A stretch of DNA of 64,000 nt from Nibribacter ruber (GTDB lineage Bacteria; Bacteroidota; Bacteroidia; Cytophagales; Hymenobacteraceae). The notes beneath the pieces are model-generated. The model saw nothing but the letters and a program-made list of their open reading frames with translations. It searched no databases and was not told the origin of the DNA. Made by a program: the position numbers and the translations under genes. This document shows positions 37,562 to 63,659 of the stretch, in pieces. The stretch spans positions 806,001 to 870,000 of the forward strand of contig NZ_CP047897.1 in the NCBI RefSeq assembly GCF_009913235.1. The letters are read 5' to 3'. Numbering within the stretch: position 1 is the first letter of the stretch; each line of letters starts with the position of its first letter.

Positions 37562-38005
37562 ATGGCCGTAGAACCCATTATTGTAGAACGCACCTTTGAG
37601 GCCTCGCCCGAAACCATTTGGCAAGCGCTGACAAACCCAGATGAGATAAAAAAGTGGTACTTTGATATTCCGGGTTTTGAGCCGAAGGTAGGCCACCAAT
37701 TCCAGTTCACGGGCGAGAATGAAGGCCGAACTTTTCTACACCTCTGCGAAGTAAAAGAAGCCATCCCCCACCAAAAACTGGTACACACCTGGCGCTACCA
37801 AGGCCAACCTGGTGATACCTTGGTGACCTTTGAATTGACACCTAAGCAAAACGGTACTCGCCTGAAATTGACGCACGCCGGTACGGAGACGTTTCCTAAA
37901 GACAATCCAGACCTGGCCCGCAAAAACTTTGAAGCTGGTTGGAATTTCATTATAGGAACTAGCCTGCAAGACTATCTGGAGAAAGAGAACAAACTGAATA
38001 AGTAG
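37562..38005 (+). CDS. SRPBCC / AHSA1-type protein
   Basis: A 147-residue START-like domain protein. IIVERTFEASPETIWQALTNPDEIKKWYFDIPGFEPKVG is the classic AHSA1 N-terminus, with the repeated pattern VxHTWRYQG... and the C-terminal GWNFIIGTSLQDYLEKE. The family binds small hydrophobic ligands in a deep cavity; this member's role is unknown. A well-formed terminator follows, after an inverted-repeat element. Confidence 0.88.
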   Translation: MAVEPIIVERTFEASPETIWQALTNPDEIKKWYFDIPGFEPKVGHQFQFTGENEGRTFLHLCEVKEAIPHQKLVHTWRYQGQPGDTLVTFELTPKQNGTRLKLTHAGTETFPKDNPDLARKNFEAGWNFIIGTSLQDYLEKENKLNK

Positions 38006-38041
38006 ATATTGACCCTCGCGCAACAATTCGCTTTTCCCCTA

Positions 38042-38179
38042 TTGTCATCCTGAAAGGAACTTGTGGGCGAACTAGAAAGGCCTAGTCAATTAAACTTAAT
38101 GATTTATTTAAACGACTGGTATTATGCATTTAGTAACCGCTTCTACAGCTTGCTCACAAGGTCCTTTCAGCATGACAAA
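38042..38179. repeat. MITE-like inverted repeat element, about 138 bp
   Basis: The left end reads TTGTCATCCTGAAAGGAACT and the right end is its near-complement (GTCCTTTCAGCATGACAA). About 75 bp of AT-rich sequence separates the arms. No ORF is inside. It lies between the SRPBCC gene and its terminator. Confidence 0.7.
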
Positions 38180-38203
38180 ATGAGGATGATTAAATAAATT
38201 AAT

Positions 38204-38251
38204 AAAGGCGGTTGCCAAGGATTTTAACCTCCAGCAACCGCCTTTCTATTT
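38204..38251 (+). terminator. Rho-independent terminator after the SRPBCC gene
   Basis: AAAGGCGGTTGC / GCAACCGCCTTT stem followed by CTATTTTT, which is also the left arm of palindrome copy 15. Confidence 0.85.
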
Positions 38252-38284
38252 TTGGCCTGTTTCCACTAAAACAGGCTAAAAACG
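38247..38284. repeat. Palindromic repeat copy 15
   Basis: CTATTTTTGGCCTG / CAGGCTAAAAACG; it begins inside the T-tail of the preceding terminator. Confidence 0.82.
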
Positions 38285-38290
38285 ATATAC

Positions 38291-39046
38291 TTATACCGCC
38301 ACCATTTGCAATGGAGCGGGCTCCTCTTTAGCAGGATGGCCTTCCGTTTCTAGGCGCTCTGCCAAAAGGGTCAAGTCAGAAAGATTTTCCAGCACGAAGT
38401 AGGCCTTCGGTAGTTTGCCTTCTTCAAACGGTACAGCCAACAGCTCTTCCAAAACCAATGGCTGCCATTTGGTTTCATGGCGAAGGGCGGCTTCTCCTTC
38501 AGGGGCATTGGAAATTAAGCGGGCCCCGAACAAGGTCATCTGCCCTTTGTGGTCTCTTAGCAATCCATTGCCCAACACGTGCTGAGAAATCTGCCACAGC
38601 GTTTCTACCGTTGCCAGGTCTTTACTCTCTTGTGCTAGTTTACCCAAACGATACATGAAGTCACGCACCTCTGGCTGTAGCAACCAAGGCAGTTGACTGA
38701 AAATATCTAAGAACAAATCTGAGTTCCCTTGCAAGCGCAAATCGGCGTCTGGGTGCAGGCGCAACTGGGTCTGGGCTGGGAATTTACGTTTGCTCCACTT
38801 GGCCAGTACCTGTGCTGGGCGCGGGGTTTGCTCCACCGCCACTACCTGCCAGTCCGTATTTTTTAGCATCCAGAAATTCAACTCCTGAAACTCAGGAATG
38901 AAATACGCCTTCAGGTCTAGGGCTTTTACACCCTGCCAGAAATTGACAGCTACCACATGCGACAAGGCCTCTACCCTTTTAGTGAACAGGATGTTCCAAA
39001 TCTGCTGGTGCTGAATGGCGTACTGGTGATACGGTTGTTGGTACAT
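38291..39046 (-). CDS. Phenylalanine hydroxylase paralogue without iron ligands (pseudoenzyme)
   Basis: A 251-residue protein aligned end to end with the hydroxylase encoded 255 bp upstream on the same strand. Shared blocks include HQQIWNILFTKRVEAL, RKFPAQTQLR and the C-terminal YFVLENLSDL. The iron-binding HDxxxH pair is replaced: NSDLFLDIFSQLPWLL has Leu113 and Gln118 where the paralogue has His115 and His120, and the Glu (paralogue Glu162) aligns with Gly159. It is therefore very unlikely to hydroxylate phenylalanine. A regulatory or scaffold role, such as sensing aromatic amino acids or pairing with the active paralogue, is inferred. It has its own leader and terminator. Confidence 0.8.
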   Translation of the reverse strand: MYQQPYHQYAIQHQQIWNILFTKRVEALSHVVAVNFWQGVKALDLKAYFIPEFQELNFWMLKNTDWQVVAVEQTPRPAQVLAKWSKRKFPAQTQLRLHPDADLRLQGNSDLFLDIFSQLPWLLQPEVRDFMYRLGKLAQESKDLATVETLWQISQHVLGNGLLRDHKGQMTLFGARLISNAPEGEAALRHETKWQPLVLEELLAVPFEEGKLPKAYFVLENLSDLTLLAERLETEGHPAKEEPAPLQMVAV

Positions 39047-39060
39047 AACGTGTAAGCATA

Positions 39061-39096
39061 AAAAAAGGCCTGGCTCCGAACTCGGAACCAGGCCTT
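39061..39096 (-). terminator. Attenuator terminator before the hydroxylase-like pseudoenzyme gene
   Basis: On the reverse strand AAGGCCTGGTTCCG / CGGAGCCAGGCCTT is followed by seven T. The left arm GGTTCCGAG is complementary to CTCGGAACC inside the leader ORF upstream (39140-39165 zone), which can form an antiterminator. It lies about 15 bp before the ATG of the gene. Confidence 0.8.
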
Positions 39097-39128
39097 CTAT
39101 AGGTGAAAAATTGCTAGTCTAGATTGAC

Positions 39129-39218
39129 TCAACTTTGCCCATACGGTGTCTCGGTTCCGAGCGGATTATGCATCGGATTACACTTGACAATCGTAAAATA
39201 GAGGGCAAATAGTTTCAT
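39129..39218 (-). CDS. Leader peptide (29 aa) before the hydroxylase-like pseudoenzyme gene
   Basis: A 30-codon ORF (29 residues plus stop), starting MKLFALYFTIVKCN and continuing PMHNPLGTETPYGQS. It lies upstream of a hairpin terminator and contains, right after the NPMHN codons, the run CTCGGAACC that is complementary to the terminator arm GGTTCCGAG. It matches the leader before the active hydroxylase in length, in the CN- and PLG/SLG elements and in antiterminator position, but has no run of Tyr codons. Phe4, Tyr7 and Phe8 are the only aromatic codons that could be sensed early; Tyr26 is after the antiterminator. Confidence 0.6.
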   Translation of the reverse strand: MKLFALYFTIVKCNPMHNPLGTETPYGQS

Positions 39219-39258
39219 TTCAAGACTAATGTATAAACTTTTTGTGACAATTCAAATC

Positions 39259-39294
39259 GTTTTTACGCTGATTTTTTCAAAACGGCTTAAAAAC
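39259..39294. repeat. Palindromic repeat copy 16
   Basis: CGTTTTTACGCTG left arm and GGCTTAAAAACG right arm; a diverged copy 6 bp beyond the stop of the active hydroxylase gene. Confidence 0.7.
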
Positions 39295-39300
39295 GGCATA

Positions 39301-40047
39301 TTATTTTATTTCTTCCTGAGCTAAAGCCAGTTGCAACTCGTCCTCAAAGGCGGTGAGCGACTCCATCAGTTGACTGTAGTCTTCCAACACGAAGTATTCC
39401 TCCTGAAACTTCTCTTTGATGTACGGCGTCTGCAGAATCTGACGCACATTGAAGGCATGACGCTTAGGCTCGTCAGACAGAGAAAACGCCGTCTCACCAG
39501 CCGAAGAAAGAATACCTGCGCCGTAAATGCGCAACTCGCCCTCCTCTTCTATCAGGCCAAACTCAACCGTGTACCAGTACAGCCTGGATATGAGTTCTAC
39601 GGCCCACTCATTGTCCAGAAAATTTAACGCTACCTGGCTCATGGCCTCCAGAAAGTTTACAAACTCCTGGTTGGCCAACAAAGGCACGTGCGCGAAGACG
39701 TCATGGAACATGTCTGGCTCTTCCAGGTAATCCAGTTGGCTCATGGTGCGCAACCAGGTAGTGGCCGGGAACTTGCGTTGGGACAGCAACTCAAAGAAAG
39801 TACGGTTGTCTACAATGCCCGGCACGCCTACCAATTGCCAACCCGTCTTGGCCAGCAAGCGCTCATTCACCTCATTGAAATCAGGAATACGGTTGGGCTC
39901 AAAGCCTACGTCCTTTAAGCCTAGCATAAATGCTTTGGTGGCGGCCGCAGGCAAGATGTTCAATTGCCGGGTATAGAGCAGATTCCATACTTGCTGATGT
40001 TCTGGCGTGTATGCGGCGTAATCCTGGGTTAAGATGATGGTTGACAT
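39301..40047 (-). CDS. phhA: Phenylalanine 4-hydroxylase (aromatic amino acid hydroxylase)
   Basis: A 248-residue enzyme of the bacterial PhhA type that converts phenylalanine to tyrosine with pterin and O2. The catalytic motif is EPDMFHDVFAHVPLL with iron ligands His115 and His120, and the third ligand Glu162 is in LYWYTVEFGL. Length matches single-domain bacterial enzymes; there is no ACT domain. ATG 40047 is chosen because 40 further upstream codons run through the attenuator hairpin and are not conserved. It has a leader with four Tyr codons, so tyrosine starvation should induce it. The pseudoenzyme gene follows downstream. Confidence 0.93.
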   Translation of the reverse strand: MSTIILTQDYAAYTPEHQQVWNLLYTRQLNILPAAATKAFMLGLKDVGFEPNRIPDFNEVNERLLAKTGWQLVGVPGIVDNRTFFELLSQRKFPATTWLRTMSQLDYLEEPDMFHDVFAHVPLLANQEFVNFLEAMSQVALNFLDNEWAVELISRLYWYTVEFGLIEEEGELRIYGAGILSSAGETAFSLSDEPKRHAFNVRQILQTPYIKEKFQEEYFVLEDYSQLMESLTAFEDELQLALAQEEIK

Positions 40048-40084
40048 AGTGGATGGTTTAATTTTTGAGCGAATAATAAGACAT

Positions 40085-40120
40085 AAAAAAAAGCCTGGCT
40101 CCGTTGTCGGAACCAGGCTT
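40085..40120 (-). terminator. Attenuator terminator before phhA
   Basis: On the reverse strand AAGCCTGGTTCCG / CGGAGCCAGGCTT is followed by eight T. The arm TTCCGAC is complementary to GTCGGAA inside the leader ORF (codons just after the Tyr run), giving a mutually exclusive antiterminator. Confidence 0.85.
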
Positions 40121-40147
40121 TGTATGAGTAAGGATGAATCTTCTTTC

Positions 40148-40237
40148 TTATCCTTGAACGCACGCAACTTCCTTCCGACCGAGGGACTCAGGACGGTAGT
40201 AATAATAATTGCAGATGGTCAAGTGCTGTGCTTGCAT
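40148..40237 (-). CDS. Tyr leader peptide (29 aa) of phhA
   Basis: A 30-codon ORF: MQAQHLTICN, then four consecutive Tyr codons (TAT TAT TAC TAC), then RPESLGRKEV and ACVQG-stop. The Tyr run is followed within 20 bases by GTCGGAA, which pairs with the terminator arm TTCCGAC. If charged tRNA-Tyr is scarce, a ribosome stalled at the Tyr run leaves this segment free to pair, so transcription continues into phhA, which makes tyrosine. The run YYYY is far beyond chance for a 29-residue ORF in this position. Confidence 0.9.
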   Translation of the reverse strand: MQAQHLTICNYYYYRPESLGRKEVACVQG

Positions 40238-40302
40238 GGGTCTAAAAGTAGAGGCCGAGAATGGCATCTCCAAACTAAACGGCAGTTTTTTTTTAGGTTC
40301 TT

Positions 40303-40341
40303 CCGTTTTTACCCTGATTTCCAGGAATTAAGCCAAAAACG
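40303..40341. repeat. Palindromic repeat copy 17
   Basis: CCGTTTTTACCCTG left arm and AAGCCAAAAACG right arm. Confidence 0.78.
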
Positions 40342-40495
40342 AGCTTAATTAAGAATTAGTAATTAAGAATCAGACGTTGACGCATATCGCCCCCCCTTTC
40401 AAAGGATTGAGGGATAAGTGAAATTTGACTCATTTAATCATAAATAAGCTTGAATCCTTTCCTTCTTTTCTGCCTCAAAACTAAAAACACTCGCT

Positions 40496-40614
40496 CTCGC
40501 TCGCCTCTGGCGAGTGTGAGGTATCGACGGCCTCCGGCCGCTGTAATTATGTAAGGATACCTTTAAACTTGGCCAGAGGCCAATCACACCCCACACTCGC
40601 CAGAGGCGAGCGAG
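40496..40614. repeat. Long inverted repeat, 23-bp perfect arms
   Basis: The arm CTCGCTCGCCTCTGGCGAGT (continuing GTG, 40496-40518) is repeated in inverse orientation at 40592-40614. The 73-bp spacer holds a small GGCCTCCGGCC stem and GGCCAGAGGCC. Each arm is itself partly self-complementary (CTCGCC / GGCGAG). GC-rich and G+C content contrasts with the AT-rich flanks. It lies 20 bp after the DAHP synthase stop codon and may end the trp operon transcript. Confidence 0.85.
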
Positions 40615-40634
40615 ATTATGATGGTTTATACTAT

Positions 40635-41651
40635 TTAATTCCCCAGCTCTTTTCTAAGCGCGAAGGTCTTTTGCATCTTCTTAATCATGCGCTCTGACTC
40701 CGTAAAACTCAGGGTCTGGGCTCCGTCAGAGGCGGCTTCTTCTGGCTTTTCATGCGTCTCATAGATAATGCCATCAGCGCCGGCCATGATGGCGGCCAAG
40801 GCCATGGGCTCTACGTACTCGCGTATGCCCATGCCGTGCGATGGGTCCACAATCACCGGCAGGTGCGTCTTCTCCTTCAGGATTGGAATAGCGTTCAAGT
40901 CTAGGGTGTTTCGGCTGGCGGTTTCATAGGTTCTAATACCGCGCTCGCAAAGCATCAGTTTCTCATTGCCACCAGAAAAGATGTACTCCGCTGAATAGAG
41001 CAATTCATCAATAGTGCCGGAGATGCCACGCTTCAACAAAACAGGCTTATCTACTTTGCCCAATTCATCTAGCAGGTTGAAGTTTTGGGTATTGCGCGCA
41101 CCCACTTGAAACACGTCTGTGTACGGTTCCATGGGCGCAATCTGCGACACCTGCATCACCTCAGTGACTACCTTAATGCCATTGGCCCGGCACATGTCAT
41201 AGAACATTTTTAAGCCTTCTAAACCCAGCCCTCTAAAAGAATAAGGCGAGCTACGAGGCTTGAACACACCCCCGCGCATGAACCTTACCCCTTGTTCTAC
41301 CAGGTGGTTTATGGTTTTCTCCACCTGCGCCTCATTCTCAATGGAGCATGGTCCCGCCATGATGGTGAACTCGCCTTCCTTCACGCGCAATCCGTCGCCG
41401 AAGTCAATGACCGTCGGGTTTACCTTCCATTTCCTTGACACCAGTTTGTAGTCATCTGAGACAATGTGCAGGTCTTTGATGCCCGGCAGATTTCCCACCG
41501 CGCGCACGTCAAAATCGGCTTTGCCGGTACCTACCAGGTAATGGCCTTGTTGCGTGATGACTTCGGTGATTTTGTATTTCAGAGCATTGGCCTTTTGGAT
41601 GATGGCCTCTTTCTGAGCTGGATTTATATCTGATTGAAGTTGTATTAACAT
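40635..41651 (-). CDS. aroF: 3-deoxy-7-phosphoheptulonate (DAHP) synthase, type I-beta
   Basis: A 338-residue enzyme that makes DAHP, the first step of the shikimate pathway. It has the N-terminal ferredoxin-like domain of Thermotoga-type enzymes (MLIQLQSDINPAQKEAII, about 1-70), and the barrel motifs GPCSIEN, MRGGVFKPRSSPYSFRGLG and PVIVDPSHGMG. The ferredoxin-like domain binds Tyr or Phe in homologues and so gives feedback control. It lies 138 bp downstream of trpA on the same strand with a palindrome between, and so probably belongs to the trp transcription unit. ATG 41651 was chosen because upstream in-frame codons run through the palindrome. Confidence 0.95.
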   Translation of the reverse strand: MLIQLQSDINPAQKEAIIQKANALKYKITEVITQQGHYLVGTGKADFDVRAVGNLPGIKDLHIVSDDYKLVSRKWKVNPTVIDFGDGLRVKEGEFTIMAGPCSIENEAQVEKTINHLVEQGVRFMRGGVFKPRSSPYSFRGLGLEGLKMFYDMCRANGIKVVTEVMQVSQIAPMEPYTDVFQVGARNTQNFNLLDELGKVDKPVLLKRGISGTIDELLYSAEYIFSGGNEKLMLCERGIRTYETASRNTLDLNAIPILKEKTHLPVIVDPSHGMGIREYVEPMALAAIMAGADGIIYETHEKPEEAASDGAQTLSFTESERMIKKMQKTFALRKELGN

Positions 41652-41735
41652 GGTGAAGATTTGGAAATTTGGAGATGTGAAGATTTGAAAATGGTGGGGC
41701 TCAAAACAGTCATATCTATGCTTTAAACTAAAGGT

Positions 41736-41771
41736 CGTTTTTGGCTTGTTTTCTGGAAAAGAGACCAAAAA
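41736..41771. repeat. Palindromic repeat copy 18
   Basis: CGTTTTTGGCTTG left arm and GAGACCAAAAACA right arm, between trpA and the DAHP synthase gene. In-frame translation of it gives SFPENKPKTTF, a non-conserved upstream extension of aroF. Confidence 0.85.
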
Positions 41772-41789
41772 CAATACTTTCTAAAAGTC

Positions 41790-42593
41790 TTATGTCTTGA
41801 GTCCTGCGTCTTGTGTCTGCTTAATACTTTTCAAAAACGTACGCACATTTTCCTTCACTTCTGAAGGTTGTTGCAAGGCTTTGATGAAGGCACTGCCTAT
41901 GATGGCACCGTGCGCGGTTTGACAGGCCATCTCAAACGATACTTTATCAGAAATCCCGAAGCCAATCAACAGAGGACTACGTAAGCCCAAAGCTTTCACT
42001 CTGGAGAAGTAAGCTTGCTGGGCCTCACTGGTCTGTACCTGGCTACCAGTGGTACTGGCACTAGAAACCATGTAAATGAAGGAATCCGTGAGTGCGTCGA
42101 TTTTCCGGATGCGGTCCTCAGAGGTTTGCGGGGTGATTAAGAAAATGAGACTCAGGCCGTATTTTTCCAGAATGAGCTTGTATTCTTCTTCATACTCCAC
42201 CAAAGGCATGTCGGGTAAGATAAACCCATCTACGCCTACCTTGGCGGCGGCTTCACAGAAGGCCTCAAATCCAAACTGCAACACTGGGTTCAAGTAGCCC
42301 ATTAAAATGATTGGAAGCGATACTTTCTCCCGGATACCTTCTAACTGTTGGAATAAGGTTTTCACACTCATGCCATTCTCTAGAGCGACTTGGTTGCTGG
42401 CCTGGATGGTGGGTCCGTCCGCGAGCGGATCAGAGAACGGCATGCCAATCTCCACCAAGTCAGCGCCGGCGGCTTGCAGTTCTTCTAGGATGGTGACGGT
42501 GTCATTCAGGTTAGGGAAACCGGCGGTGAAATACACATTGAGCAAGTTGCCTTGGTTCTCTTGGAACAAGTGGGTAAGTCTATTTTTGGACAT
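41790..42593 (-). CDS. trpA: Tryptophan synthase alpha subunit
   Basis: A 267-residue (beta/alpha)8 enzyme that cleaves indole-3-glycerol phosphate to indole and glyceraldehyde 3-phosphate. The catalytic Glu is in [18 protein letters not shown] and the Asp in DGFILPDMP; the phosphate site is GFGISD and [11 protein letters not shown] 42593 overlaps the trpB stop by 14 bp; the upstream TTG is less likely. The last residues ([10 protein letters not shown]) are encoded by a low-complexity GACTCAAGAC-type repeat rather than conserved sequence. It works as an alpha2-beta2 complex with TrpB. Confidence 0.96.
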
Positions 42594-60476: not shown

Positions 60477-60506
60477 AAGCCCCGCCCACCAGCGGGGCTT
60501 TTTTAT
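60477..60506 (+). terminator. Attenuator terminator of the pheA operon
   Basis: AAGCCCCGC / GCGGGGCTT with a six-base loop, then six T, 15 bp before ATG 60522. Confidence 0.92.
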
Positions 60507-60521
60507 TGGCAAAAATGTAAG

Positions 60522-61367
60522 ATGAGAATAGCAATTCAAGGAGGCCCAGCCTCTTTTCATGACGTACTGACAAGAACTATTTTTGAAGAGACTTCCCTGG
60601 AAGTTCTGCATTGTGACACCTTTGAGCAAGTAGGCCAACTTTTGGCAGACGGTAGCGCTGCCCGGGCGGTCATGGCCGTGGAGAATACCCTGGCCGGGCC
60701 TTTGCTGAATAACTTCAAGTTAGTGCAACAGCATCAGTTCCATATTCTGGAGGAGCACTGGCTGCCCATTGACCAAACGCTGATGGCGTTACCAGGCCAG
60801 ACCTTGCAGAACCTTCAGGAAGTATGGTCGCACCCCGTGGCCCTGCAGCAGTGCAGCCGTTTGTTTGAGCAGCATCCATACCTGGTGGCCACGGCCAAGG
60901 CAGACACCGCCGACAGCGCCCGCCAGATTCAAGAACAGCAATTGAAAGGCATAGGAGCCATCGCAAGCCTTGCCGCCGCCGCCTTATATGACCTAACCGT
61001 TTTGCAAGCACAGGCCGCAGACACCCGTCACAACTATACCCGCTTTTTCCTTTTGTCTAAAGAGCGCCGCGGCGCGCATGTTCCCGCCACCAAAGCGAGC
61101 CTTATTGTACCTATCCTATCTGTAAATTCCTCCGCCGCTTTAGTCAGCCAGCTCAAAAAAATTCTGGGGAAGAAATTGTCCCTTTGCCAGGAGTTGCCGG
61201 GCGGTAAAAACCCAGAACTGCTGGTGGAAGTGTCTTGCCCGAATGAAAAGGAATTGATCTTCGCCCTGAAAAAATTGAAGTCCCTTGAGCCTCGGGTTCA
61301 ATTGCTGGGCATGTACCAAGGCAAGCCTGCACCGCAACTATCGTCAATTCTAGATTCTGCCCTATGA
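60522..61367 (+). CDS. pheA: Prephenate dehydratase
   Basis: A 281-residue monofunctional enzyme that makes phenylpyruvate. The PDT domain (about 1-180) begins MRIAIQGGPASFHD, has MAVENTLAGPLLNNF (about 51-65) and the TRF motif in HNYTRFFLLS. The C-terminal ACT domain (about 195-275) includes SLIVPILSVNSSAALVSQLKKILG and binds Phe in homologues; the classical ESRP motif is absent. Its stop overlaps the aminotransferase start as ATGA. The leader and terminator upstream indicate Phe/Tyr attenuation. Confidence 0.95.
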   Translation: MRIAIQGGPASFHDVLTRTIFEETSLEVLHCDTFEQVGQLLADGSAARAVMAVENTLAGPLLNNFKLVQQHQFHILEEHWLPIDQTLMALPGQTLQNLQEVWSHPVALQQCSRLFEQHPYLVATAKADTADSARQIQEQQLKGIGAIASLAAAALYDLTVLQAQAADTRHNYTRFFLLSKERRGAHVPATKASLIVPILSVNSSAALVSQLKKILGKKLSLCQELPGGKNPELLVEVSCPNEKELIFALKKLKSLEPRVQLLGMYQGKPAPQLSSILDSAL

Positions 61368-62557
61368 TTATTTCCAGCGCTCACCGGTTGCAGAACGTGC
61401 CAGAATACTACTTTTCCAGAAAGCTGGCAGAGGTACGGGCTTTGCAGGCAGCCGATAAACACATCATTAACCTGGGCATTGGCGATCCTGATTTGCTGCC
61501 CTCCCCAGAAACTGTGCAGGGTCTTGTGCAGGCTGCCGTCCGTCCAGAAGCCCACCACTATCAGCCCTCTGCCGGTGCGCTGCCTTTAAAAAAAGCCTTT
61601 GCACGTTGGTACCTGAAAACCTACGGAGTCACGCTTGACCCTAAGTCAGAGGTTCTTCCTTTGATGGGCTCCAAAGAAGGCATCTTTCATATTTCCATGG
61701 CCTTTCTGAACCCGGGAGATCAAGTGCTTCTGCCAGACCCCGGCTACCCGGCCTATACGGCGGTAACAAAACTAGTAGGTGCGCAGCCGGTTCCATATGC
61801 CCTAACCCAGGAGAACGACTGGCAACCAGATTTGGACCAGTTAGAAGCGGTGCTGCAAGGCGGCAAGGTTAAACTCATGTGGGTGAATTATCCGCATATG
61901 CCCACGGGGGCCGGCGCCTGCATAACAATGTTGGATGCCCTCATTGTCCTAGCCAAAAAGTATAAGTTTCTACTGGTGAATGACAATCCTTATAGCCTGG
62001 TATTGCCACAGGAATCGCCGGTAAGCCTGCTTTCCAGACCGGGAGCCGAGAAGTGCTGCCTGGAACTTAACTCTCTGAGCAAATCGCATAACATGGCGGG
62101 ATGGCGCGTGGGCGTGGTGGCAGGAAATGGTGCGTATTTGAGCTGCCTGCTCCAGGTGAAGAGCAATCTGGACTCTGGCATGTTTCTGCCCGTGCAACAG
62201 GCCGCCATCAAAGCCTTGCACAATCCAGAGACTTGGCATGACCACCAAAACCAAGAATACCAGAAGCGCAAACAGGTAGTCTTTGAGCTACTTGATCTCT
62301 TGGATTGCCACTACCAAACCAACACGCACGGTCTTTTTGTCTGGGCCAGAGTGCCGGACCATGTTCTAGACACAGAAGCCTTTTTAGACGAACTCCTCTA
62401 TGAGGCCGGAATATTCCTGACTCCGGGCAAAATCTTCGGGAAGCAAGGCGAGCGGTACCTACGGGTCTCGCTCTGTTCACCAGTATCTCAGTTAAAAGAA
62501 GCCATTCAAAGAATTCAACATCACCTTTTACCCAAGAATACCCATGCAAGTATCTAA
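61364..62557 (+). CDS. Class I aminotransferase (aromatic amino acid type)
   Basis: A 397-residue PLP enzyme of fold type I. The PLP-lysine is in NSLSKSHNMAGWRVG (about 235-249), the family's NYPNNPTGA reads NYPHMPTGA, and the Arg for the substrate carboxylate is in YLRVSLCSP. Between pheA and the DAHP synthase-chorismate mutase gene it most likely transaminates phenylpyruvate or 4-hydroxyphenylpyruvate, giving phenylalanine and tyrosine. LL-diaminopimelate or aspartate aminotransferase-like annotation is also possible by fold. It overlaps both neighbours. Confidence 0.88.
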   Translation: MIISSAHRLQNVPEYYFSRKLAEVRALQAADKHIINLGIGDPDLLPSPETVQGLVQAAVRPEAHHYQPSAGALPLKKAFARWYLKTYGVTLDPKSEVLPLMGSKEGIFHISMAFLNPGDQVLLPDPGYPAYTAVTKLVGAQPVPYALTQENDWQPDLDQLEAVLQGGKVKLMWVNYPHMPTGAGACITMLDALIVLAKKYKFLLVNDNPYSLVLPQESPVSLLSRPGAEKCCLELNSLSKSHNMAGWRVGVVAGNGAYLSCLLQVKSNLDSGMFLPVQQAAIKALHNPETWHDHQNQEYQKRKQVVFELLDLLDCHYQTNTHGLFVWARVPDHVLDTEAFLDELLYEAGIFLTPGKIFGKQGERYLRVSLCSPVSQLKEAIQRIQHHLLPKNTHASI

Positions 62558-63659
62558 CAACTCCCTTACCATCACCGCCCGAACCAAAATTTTAAACGGC
62601 GGCCCACTGCCAACCGTCATTGCTGGTCCCTGCAGCGCTGAAACCGAAGAACAAATGCTCCAAACCGCCAGGGCTCTGCAGCAGGATCACCGCGTGTCGG
62701 TGTTCAGGGCGGGCATCTGGAAACCCCGCACTCGGCCAGGCTTGTTTGAAGGAATTGGCCAGGTGGGTTTGGAATGGCTACAGAACGTGAAAAGTGAGAC
62801 CGGCCTGCAAACTGCGGTGGAGGTGGCCAATACGCAGCACGTAGAACAGGCCCTTCGGCATGGGGTGGACATTTTGTGGGTGGGTGCCAGAACCACCGTC
62901 AATCCTTTCTCTGTACAGGAGATAGCTGATGCCCTGCAAGGTGTGGACATTCCGGTGCTGGTGAAGAACCCCGTCAACCCAGACATCCAGTTGTGGCTGG
63001 GCGCCCTGGAACGACTGAACCGCGCCGGCATCACAGACCTGGGACTCATTCATAGGGGCTTTTCCACCGTCAACAATAAACCGTACCGCAACCATCCCAA
63101 ATGGGAAGCCATTGCCCAGATAAGAGCCCTCGCGCCTGGAGTTCCTTTGATCTGTGACCCCAGCCATATTGCTGGCCGCCGCGACCTGTTACAGACTGTT
63201 AGTCAGCAGGCGCTTCACCTGGGCGCAGACGGCCTCATGATTGAAACCCATTGCAACCCAGACGCTGCGTTAAGCGATGCCTCCCAACAAGTGACTCCCG
63301 CGGGCTTAGACGCGCTCCTCACTTCTTTGGACCTGGAATCTGAGCGGGTGGCCAACACGGGACAGTTGCAGGAATTAAGAATGATTGTGGACAGATTGGA
63401 CCAGGACCTGCTGCACCTGCTCTTCCTCCGGACGGATGTTTCGGAACGCATTGGCGCCTACAAGAAAACACATGGCCTGGATGTTTTTCAGGCGGGACGC
63501 TGGCGCGATGTACTGGAGAACAGACTCACCATTGCCCGCGAAATTGGCTTGGACGAGCATTATGTAAAAGCCATCTTTGACATCATCCACAACCAGTCCA
63601 TCGGGCTACAAAACGAAGTAGTGGCCTCTTCTGCTCCTGTTCAGGAAACCGCCCACTAA
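62544..63659 (+). CDS. DAHP synthase / chorismate mutase fusion
   Basis: A 371-residue bifunctional enzyme. Residues about 1-265 are a type I DAHP synthase with VIAGPCSAETEEQML, FRAGIWKPRTRPGLFEGIG and PLICDPSHIAGRRDLL. Residues about 275-360 are an AroQ chorismate mutase (LRMIVDRLDQDLLHLLFLRTDVSERIGAYKK). The fused mutase domain often makes the DAHP synthase responsive to prephenate and chorismate. It completes the route chorismate-prephenate-phenylpyruvate-Phe in this operon; no tyrA is seen. It overlaps the aminotransferase by 14 bp. Confidence 0.95.
   Translation: MQVSNNSLTITARTKILNGGPLPTVIAGPCSAETEEQMLQTARALQQDHRVSVFRAGIWKPRTRPGLFEGIGQVGLEWLQNVKSETGLQTAVEVANTQHVEQALRHGVDILWVGARTTVNPFSVQEIADALQGVDIPVLVKNPVNPDIQLWLGALERLNRAGITDLGLIHRGFSTVNNKPYRNHPKWEAIAQIRALAPGVPLICDPSHIAGRRDLLQTVSQQALHLGADGLMIETHCNPDAALSDASQQVTPAGLDALLTSLDLESERVANTGQLQELRMIVDRLDQDLLHLLFLRTDVSERIGAYKKTHGLDVFQAGRWRDVLENRLTIAREIGLDEHYVKAIFDIIHNQSIGLQNEVVASSAPVQETAH

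Follow-up and report, generated by a model that had tools for sequence, protein, structure and literature searches.

Ribosome-mediated transcription attenuation of amino-acid operons is exemplified by the trp, his and phe leaders of enterobacteria, and in the classical attenuation model the choice is made while transcription proceeds. Within the Bacteroidota, an attenuator has been predicted ahead of the pheA-hisHb-aroA-aroQ-tyrA operon of Bacteroides thetaiotaomicron (PMC1173090), and the same source, in its available portions, describes phhABC of Pseudomonas aeruginosa as a catabolic system activated by PhhR, a sigma-54 activator. Biosynthetic phenylalanine hydroxylases (PAHs) are known from Dyella, Legionella and Echinicola vietnamensis, in the last case backed by fitness data (PMC7311316, again in its available portions). 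A search of the titles and abstracts of the open-licence literature returned, among the matches listed, no report of a Tyr leader or of attenuation on a PAH gene, and the words phenylalanine and tyrosine are absent from the main text of PMC2965389. Thus, attenuation and biosynthetic PAH are each known, and what appears to be new at the locus described here is a Tyr leader on a PAH gene, as a predicted variant of ribosome-mediated attenuation.

The locus lies in a window of 64,000 nucleotides from the genome of Nibribacter ruber (NZ_CP047897.1), where a phhA unit with its own promoter-like pair is situated downstream of trp genes and a DAHP synthase gene (Table 1). We consider it very probable that phhA is controlled by ribosome-mediated transcription attenuation in response to charged tRNA-Tyr, and that the hydroxylase is biosynthetic. 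The main weight of the attenuator reading is the recurrence of the predicted arrangement in relatives.

Table 1. Features of the phhA locus and of related aromatic amino-acid genes in the window, with positions in window coordinates and minus-strand features mostly given 5' to 3'
Feature	Position	Strand	Remarks
-33-like TTG (inside TTTG) of a Bacteroidota-type promoter	40273-40271	minus	TTG-N20-TACTTTTA, 8/9 scored positions
-7-like element TACTTTTA	40250-40243	minus	starts 13 nt 5' of leader ATG
Leader peptide ORF, 29 aa + stop, MQAQHLTICNYYYYRPESLGRKEVACVQG	40237-40148	minus	ATG 40237, TAA 40148
Four tandem Tyr codons TAT TAT TAC TAC, putative sensor	40207-40196	minus
Predicted 1:2 protector hairpin	40199-40172	minus	holds antiterminator strand, overlaps last Tyr codon
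Antiterminator strand 2, GTCGGAA	40179-40173	minus	17-23 nt past last Tyr codon
Predicted intrinsic terminator and U run	40121-40085	minus	26 nt past leader stop
Antiterminator strand 3, TTCCGAC	40112-40106	minus	within terminator 5' arm and loop
phhA, phenylalanine 4-hydroxylase, 248 aa	40047-39301	minus	Biopterin_H 169.5 bits
Second PAH-like gene	38291-39046	minus	adjoins phhA
Long inverted repeat	40490-40616		between DAHP synthase and phhA promoter
DAHP synthase, end of trp cluster, upstream of phhA unit	41774-40635	minus	DAHP_synth_1 243 bits
trpE, trpG, trpD, trpC, trpF, trpB, trpA cluster	48437-41790	minus	names from reading ORF sequences
Trp leader MVSRNSFGQHYWWHLSHD 5' of trpE	48586-48449	minus	terminator by eye
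pheA operon leader MIQHHAFFFGYYFFGPYKGLNW, Phe and Tyr codons	60372-60440	plus
Terminator-like hairpin and U run between leader and pheA	60477-60504	plus	by eye
pheA, aminotransferase, DAHP synthase-chorismate mutase	60522-63659	plus	Phe supply

The sequence-only reading had proposed, 5' of phhA, a 29-aa leader with YYYY, a terminator and a GTCGGAA/TTCCGAC pairing; all three are confirmed at their exact coordinates, and the range that it gave, 40085-40237, is bounded by the leader ATG and the end of the U run. The terminator hairpin has a predicted energy of -24.3 kcal/mol, and its U run ends 37 nt 5' of the phhA start codon. The 163-nt leader folds with a z of -3.08, none of 200 shuffles being equally good, and the 1:2 protector hairpin appears in the centroid fold of this leader, an observation made at this one locus. 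A near-identical leader peptide is present in a relative (locus L011). The 7-bp antiterminator of N. ruber is not significant alone (p 0.11 versus shuffles) and draws its weight from the relatives. Promoter-like sites were scored against TTG-N17..23-TANNTTTG, which we take to be the Bacteroidota-type consensus, and the position of the best site would place the transcription start at or just 5' of the leader ATG.

The locus thus combines three features of an attenuator, namely a Tyr-codon leader ORF, an intrinsic terminator and a putative exclusive antiterminator beyond the stalled ribosome. From these parts, which are read from sequence, we infer the following behavior. When Tyr is plentiful, the ribosome would pass the four Tyr codons, leaving strand 2 either covered or sequestered in the 1:2 hairpin; the terminator would then form and transcription would stop about 37 nt short of phhA. 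When Tyr is scarce, the ribosome would stall on the Tyr codons and break the 1:2 hairpin, GTCGGAA could pair with the emerging TTCCGAC, the terminator would be blocked and phhA would be transcribed by readthrough. PhhA would in turn convert Phe to Tyr using O2 and tetrahydropterin. The predicted device resembles the enterobacterial trp, his and phe attenuators in its leader of cognate codons, its exclusive antiterminator, its intrinsic terminator and a target that makes the very amino acid concerned, but differs from them in the amino acid (Tyr), the target (a PAH), the lineage (Bacteroidota) and, in all likelihood, a very short 5' end.

Tyr-rich leaders, defined as ORFs 8-60 aa long in which a stretch of 7 residues includes 4 or more Tyr, and lying no more than 800 nt upstream of a PAH gene, recur widely in relatives, all counts being taken over related genomes. 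PAH is encoded by 186 of the 291 genomes of the order, and a scan of 130 PAH genes from 129 of these 186, mainly the best-scoring ones, recovered such leaders before 28 of the 130 on the forward strand versus one on the reverse strand, with no comparable forward excess for any other amino acid across the 130 genes. In a set of 80 named PAH loci, which overlaps the order scan in that some records are identical genomes, the corresponding counts are 22 and 0. The remaining 102 genes of the order scan and 58 of the named loci fall below the threshold. In a third set, drawn from the family, leaders are present in 47 of 83 genomes, versus one of 84 regions on the reverse strand; here the PAH gene was located in 60 of the 84 regions by protein similarity to the paralogue, in some of them without a score for the PAH model. 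Carriers include Roseivirga, Nafulsella, an uncultured Pontibacter, Echinicola, Imperialibacter and Hymenobacter, the Echinicola leaders coming from four species other than E. vietnamensis, and the longest runs reach seven Tyr.

The elements downstream of the Tyr codons recur as well. Of 50 scored leaders, 47 are followed by a terminator-like hairpin, none being found after L076, L104 and L137; when the 280 nt directly 5' of PAH are considered, such a hairpin is present in 44 of 50 leader-bearing versus 51 of 160 leaderless regions. In 43 distinct cases the terminator follows the leader stop at a median of 28 nt, and in 34 of these 43 a strand able to pair with the 5' arm of the terminator lies within 10-26 nt past the last Tyr codon. 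This antiterminator attains p < 0.05 versus shuffles at 23 of the 43 loci, while three loci of one genus (L087, L106, L117) lack any such helix in the 30 nt next to the Tyr run. Cognate pairings score 16.8 on average, versus 10.0 when the terminator is taken from another locus (n=44; Mann-Whitney p 1e-14, the rows being related), and the cognate pairing ranks among the top 5% at 23 of the 44 loci. Both strands are unlike those of N. ruber in the pairings GGATTAGGT with GCCTAATCC in Echinicola, GCTCGGAAA with TTTCCGAGC at L008 and CGCTACTGCC with GGCAGTGGCG at L135.

The RNA left free past a ribosome stalled on the first Tyr codon was also folded, with no shuffle control and with helices that may differ: before the last arm of the terminator is made, at least 5 pairs between upstream RNA and the terminator 5' arm are predicted in 39 of 42 folds, versus just 8 of 42 loci at full length, where 34 of the 42 keep fewer than 5 pairs between strands 2 and 3. 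With so few of these pairs left in the complete RNA, the switch would have to be kinetic and operate during transcription. At the 5' end, 31 of 42 distinct leaders have a best upstream promoter site of at least 8/9, versus 77 of 840 shuffles. With the leader ATG taken as the last one before the Tyr run where several exist, 18 of the 31 high-scoring leaders (18 of the 42 distinct ones) have a -7 element that begins 12 or 13 nt 5' of it. This suggests, from the position of the promoter-like site alone, that the 5' untranslated part of the phhA leader transcript is very short or absent.

PhhA itself is identified as a phenylalanine 4-hydroxylase: it matches solved bacterial PAHs with E 1e-64 and retains H115, H120 and E162, His, His and Glu being what we take to be the three iron-ligand residues of PAHs. 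Pterin_4a, for pterin recycling, is encoded in the same genome (E 3.4e-27, G000:C1:2780110), and a search of 10 genomes found it in all 10. In the single-contig 4.35 Mb genome of N. ruber, profile searches gave no match for PDH_N, with which 14 of 14 control genomes match, nor for PDH_C, with which 12 of 14 do. The observation in the sequence-only reading that the pheA operon lacks tyrA is therefore borne out, and the search that it proposed for a tyrA elsewhere in the genome likewise found none with these profiles. Thus, the genome shows two marks of a biosynthetic PAH, a missing prephenate/arogenate dehydrogenase and a pterin recycling enzyme, and with no tyrA seen, PAH would be the sole Tyr route found here, as far as the profiles reach. 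Phe itself can be made, since pheA, the aminotransferase and the DAHP synthase-chorismate mutase are retained.

One alternative, which we regard as improbable, accepts the leader and terminator as real and has PhhA mainly feeding Phe catabolism via HPPD, the Tyr leader merely tuning its supply. HPPD is indeed encoded in the genome (E 1e-134), 174 kb away from phhA, and its presence makes a catabolic use of PhhA conceivable; a comparison of listed positions further places PAH beside HPPD in at least 12 of the 129 genomes of the order scan. However, none of the 28 leader-bearing genomes is among these, versus 12 of the 101 leaderless ones (p 0.068), and a switch turned on at low Tyr would have the wrong sign for catabolism. 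The placement of phhA behind trp genes and a DAHP synthase also speaks against this alternative. Of the 80 named loci, 43 have a DAHP synthase gene within 6 kb 5' of PAH in the same orientation, mostly together with trp genes, and only 7 of these 43 pass the leader threshold; an aminotransferase with tyrA lies upstream in 2 of 80 and HPPD in 2 of 80. The earlier proposal that phhA serves as a biosynthetic Tyr route is thus supported by the missing TyrA domain, the retained iron ligands of PhhA, the trp/DAHP setting and the recurring Tyr leaders. HgmA_C (PF04209) was dropped as a marker of Tyr catabolism as it matched only 2 of 291 genomes, both weakly; the model being suspected of missing the local form, HPPD was used in its place.

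Still less probable is that the leader acts on the translation of phhA or through another sensor, such as a riboswitch or T-box, rather than through stalling at Tyr codons. The U run ends well short of the start codon, the recurring feature is a Tyr-coding frame, and Rfam recorded no T-box or riboswitch in 38000-42000, where its two matches both fall far under their gathering scores. That a chance run of Tyr codons precedes an ordinary terminator, with phhA constitutive or read from the trp operon, is the least probable of all: although TAY x4 is common genome-wide (20 matches versus 24 for the reversed control, with overlaps included) and the antiterminator of N. ruber is weak by itself, a short ORF with YYYY arises just once when the 587-nt intergenic region is dinucleotide-shuffled 5000 times, the strand bias is 28 to 1, and many genera share the promoter position and the spacing between leader and terminator.

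Returning to the Tyr attenuator, its distribution was compared with that of tyrA. With PDH_N matches accepted at E <= 1e-24, tyrA is present in 125 of 291 genomes and 95 have PAH without it, the 68 genomes with weak matches (E 1e-24 to 1e-3) being scored as tyrA-less; if every match at E <= 1e-3 is counted, tyrA is present in 193 genomes and PAH without tyrA in 49. Across the order, the leader shows no association with tyrA absence (18 of 28 leader-bearing versus 52 of 101 leaderless genomes, p 0.29). In the family, leaders are found in 27 of 31 tyrA-less versus 20 of 52 tyrA-bearing genomes (p 1.2e-5), the weak-match genomes of this set being G234, G303, G337, G341, G344 and G352. This association was dropped as support since it vanishes within genera: the leader occurs in 37 of 37 genomes of genus g3 (21 without and 16 with tyrA), in 1 of 35 of genus g2 (0 of its 4 tyrA-less genomes), in genus g5 in 4 of 4 without and 2 of 4 with tyrA, and in 3 of 3 of genus g1. 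We therefore take the family-wide link to reflect the history of the genera.

In the order sample, the family members without PDH_N at E <= 1e-3 are N. ruber and seven others, all with PAH. None of the seven has a match to prephenate dehydratase (PF00800) or a close match (E <= 1e-50) to the aminotransferase of the pheA operon. They should need Phe, from which they could make Tyr. Six of them carry the Tyr leader, G270 being the exception, and in G202, which belongs to these six, no terminator was detected. Two tyrA-bearing relatives of the same genus, G228 and G196, show no short ORF rich in Phe, Tyr, Trp or His before tyrA; G228 retains a YYYYY leader on phhA and has a Pterin_4a gene adjoining phhA.

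These patterns lead to the proposal, which we consider somewhat more likely than not, that a Tyr-specific and often near-leaderless class of attenuators governs O2-dependent Tyr synthesis by PAH in many Cytophagales, and that some lineages have lost pheA, the aminotransferase and tyrA while keeping the switch, which would give an animal-like, on-demand conversion of outside Phe to Tyr. The biosynthetic PAHs described before (PMC7311316) are comparable in that the enzyme makes Tyr either in place of an absent dehydrogenase or alongside one, whereas the available portions of that article do not mention a leader before PAH, in contrast to the Tyr attenuator predicted here. The P. aeruginosa system shares the PhhA enzyme family but relies on a sigma-54 activator (PMC1173090, available portions), unlike the leader and terminator of N. 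ruber. Bacterial PAH is usually read as catabolic; if the proposal is true, the Tyr leader would be a sequence mark of biosynthetic PAH, and genomes without tyrA would be predicted to be able to make Tyr. It would also extend leader-peptide attenuation to tyrosine and to the Bacteroidota, with amino-acid synthesis using an O2-dependent step in place of the dehydrogenase and yet retaining end-product control.

The available portions of the B. thetaiotaomicron account (PMC1173090) give a likeness in that attenuation is predicted for aromatic biosynthesis in Bacteroidota, but that operon includes tyrA, whereas in N. ruber no tyrA was found and it is a PAH that would be controlled. A closer match to it in the window is the Phe/Tyr leader of pheA. 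From the codon content of the leaders, Phe supply would answer to Phe and Tyr, and the last step to Tyr alone. Phe/Tyr-rich ORFs are also found 5' of pheA in four relatives.

Several further features of the locus and its relatives were observed. The second PAH-like gene adjoining phhA has its iron triad of H, H and E replaced by L, Q and G. This triad-less paralogue (L264-L279) is present in 16 of 16 sampled genomes of the genus, the full triad in none, and 13 of the 16 have no second match at E <= 1e-10; between N. ruber (G000) and G240 its dN is 0.058 and its dS 0.85. It is conserved and probably dead as a PAH. The long inverted repeat upstream of the phhA promoter, which gives a low-scoring microRNA match in Rfam, may mark where the trp transcript ends or may be a repeat element. 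In genus g3 (L311-L343), the PAH leaders extend up to 60 aa and share a similar front and repeated Tyr clusters, e.g. YSYCLSVYSYYSYYYRYY. Two related patterns were noted at L150, L167, L173, L205 and L216 and at L147, L166, L181 and L195. In Algoriphagus, phhA is preceded by a short ORF of the MNPTPRTYVHHSYH type with few Tyr. Many Tyr leaders mix His and Tyr, as in YHYHYYH and HHYYYYY, a pattern that may stem either from drift between TAY and CAY or from a second signal.
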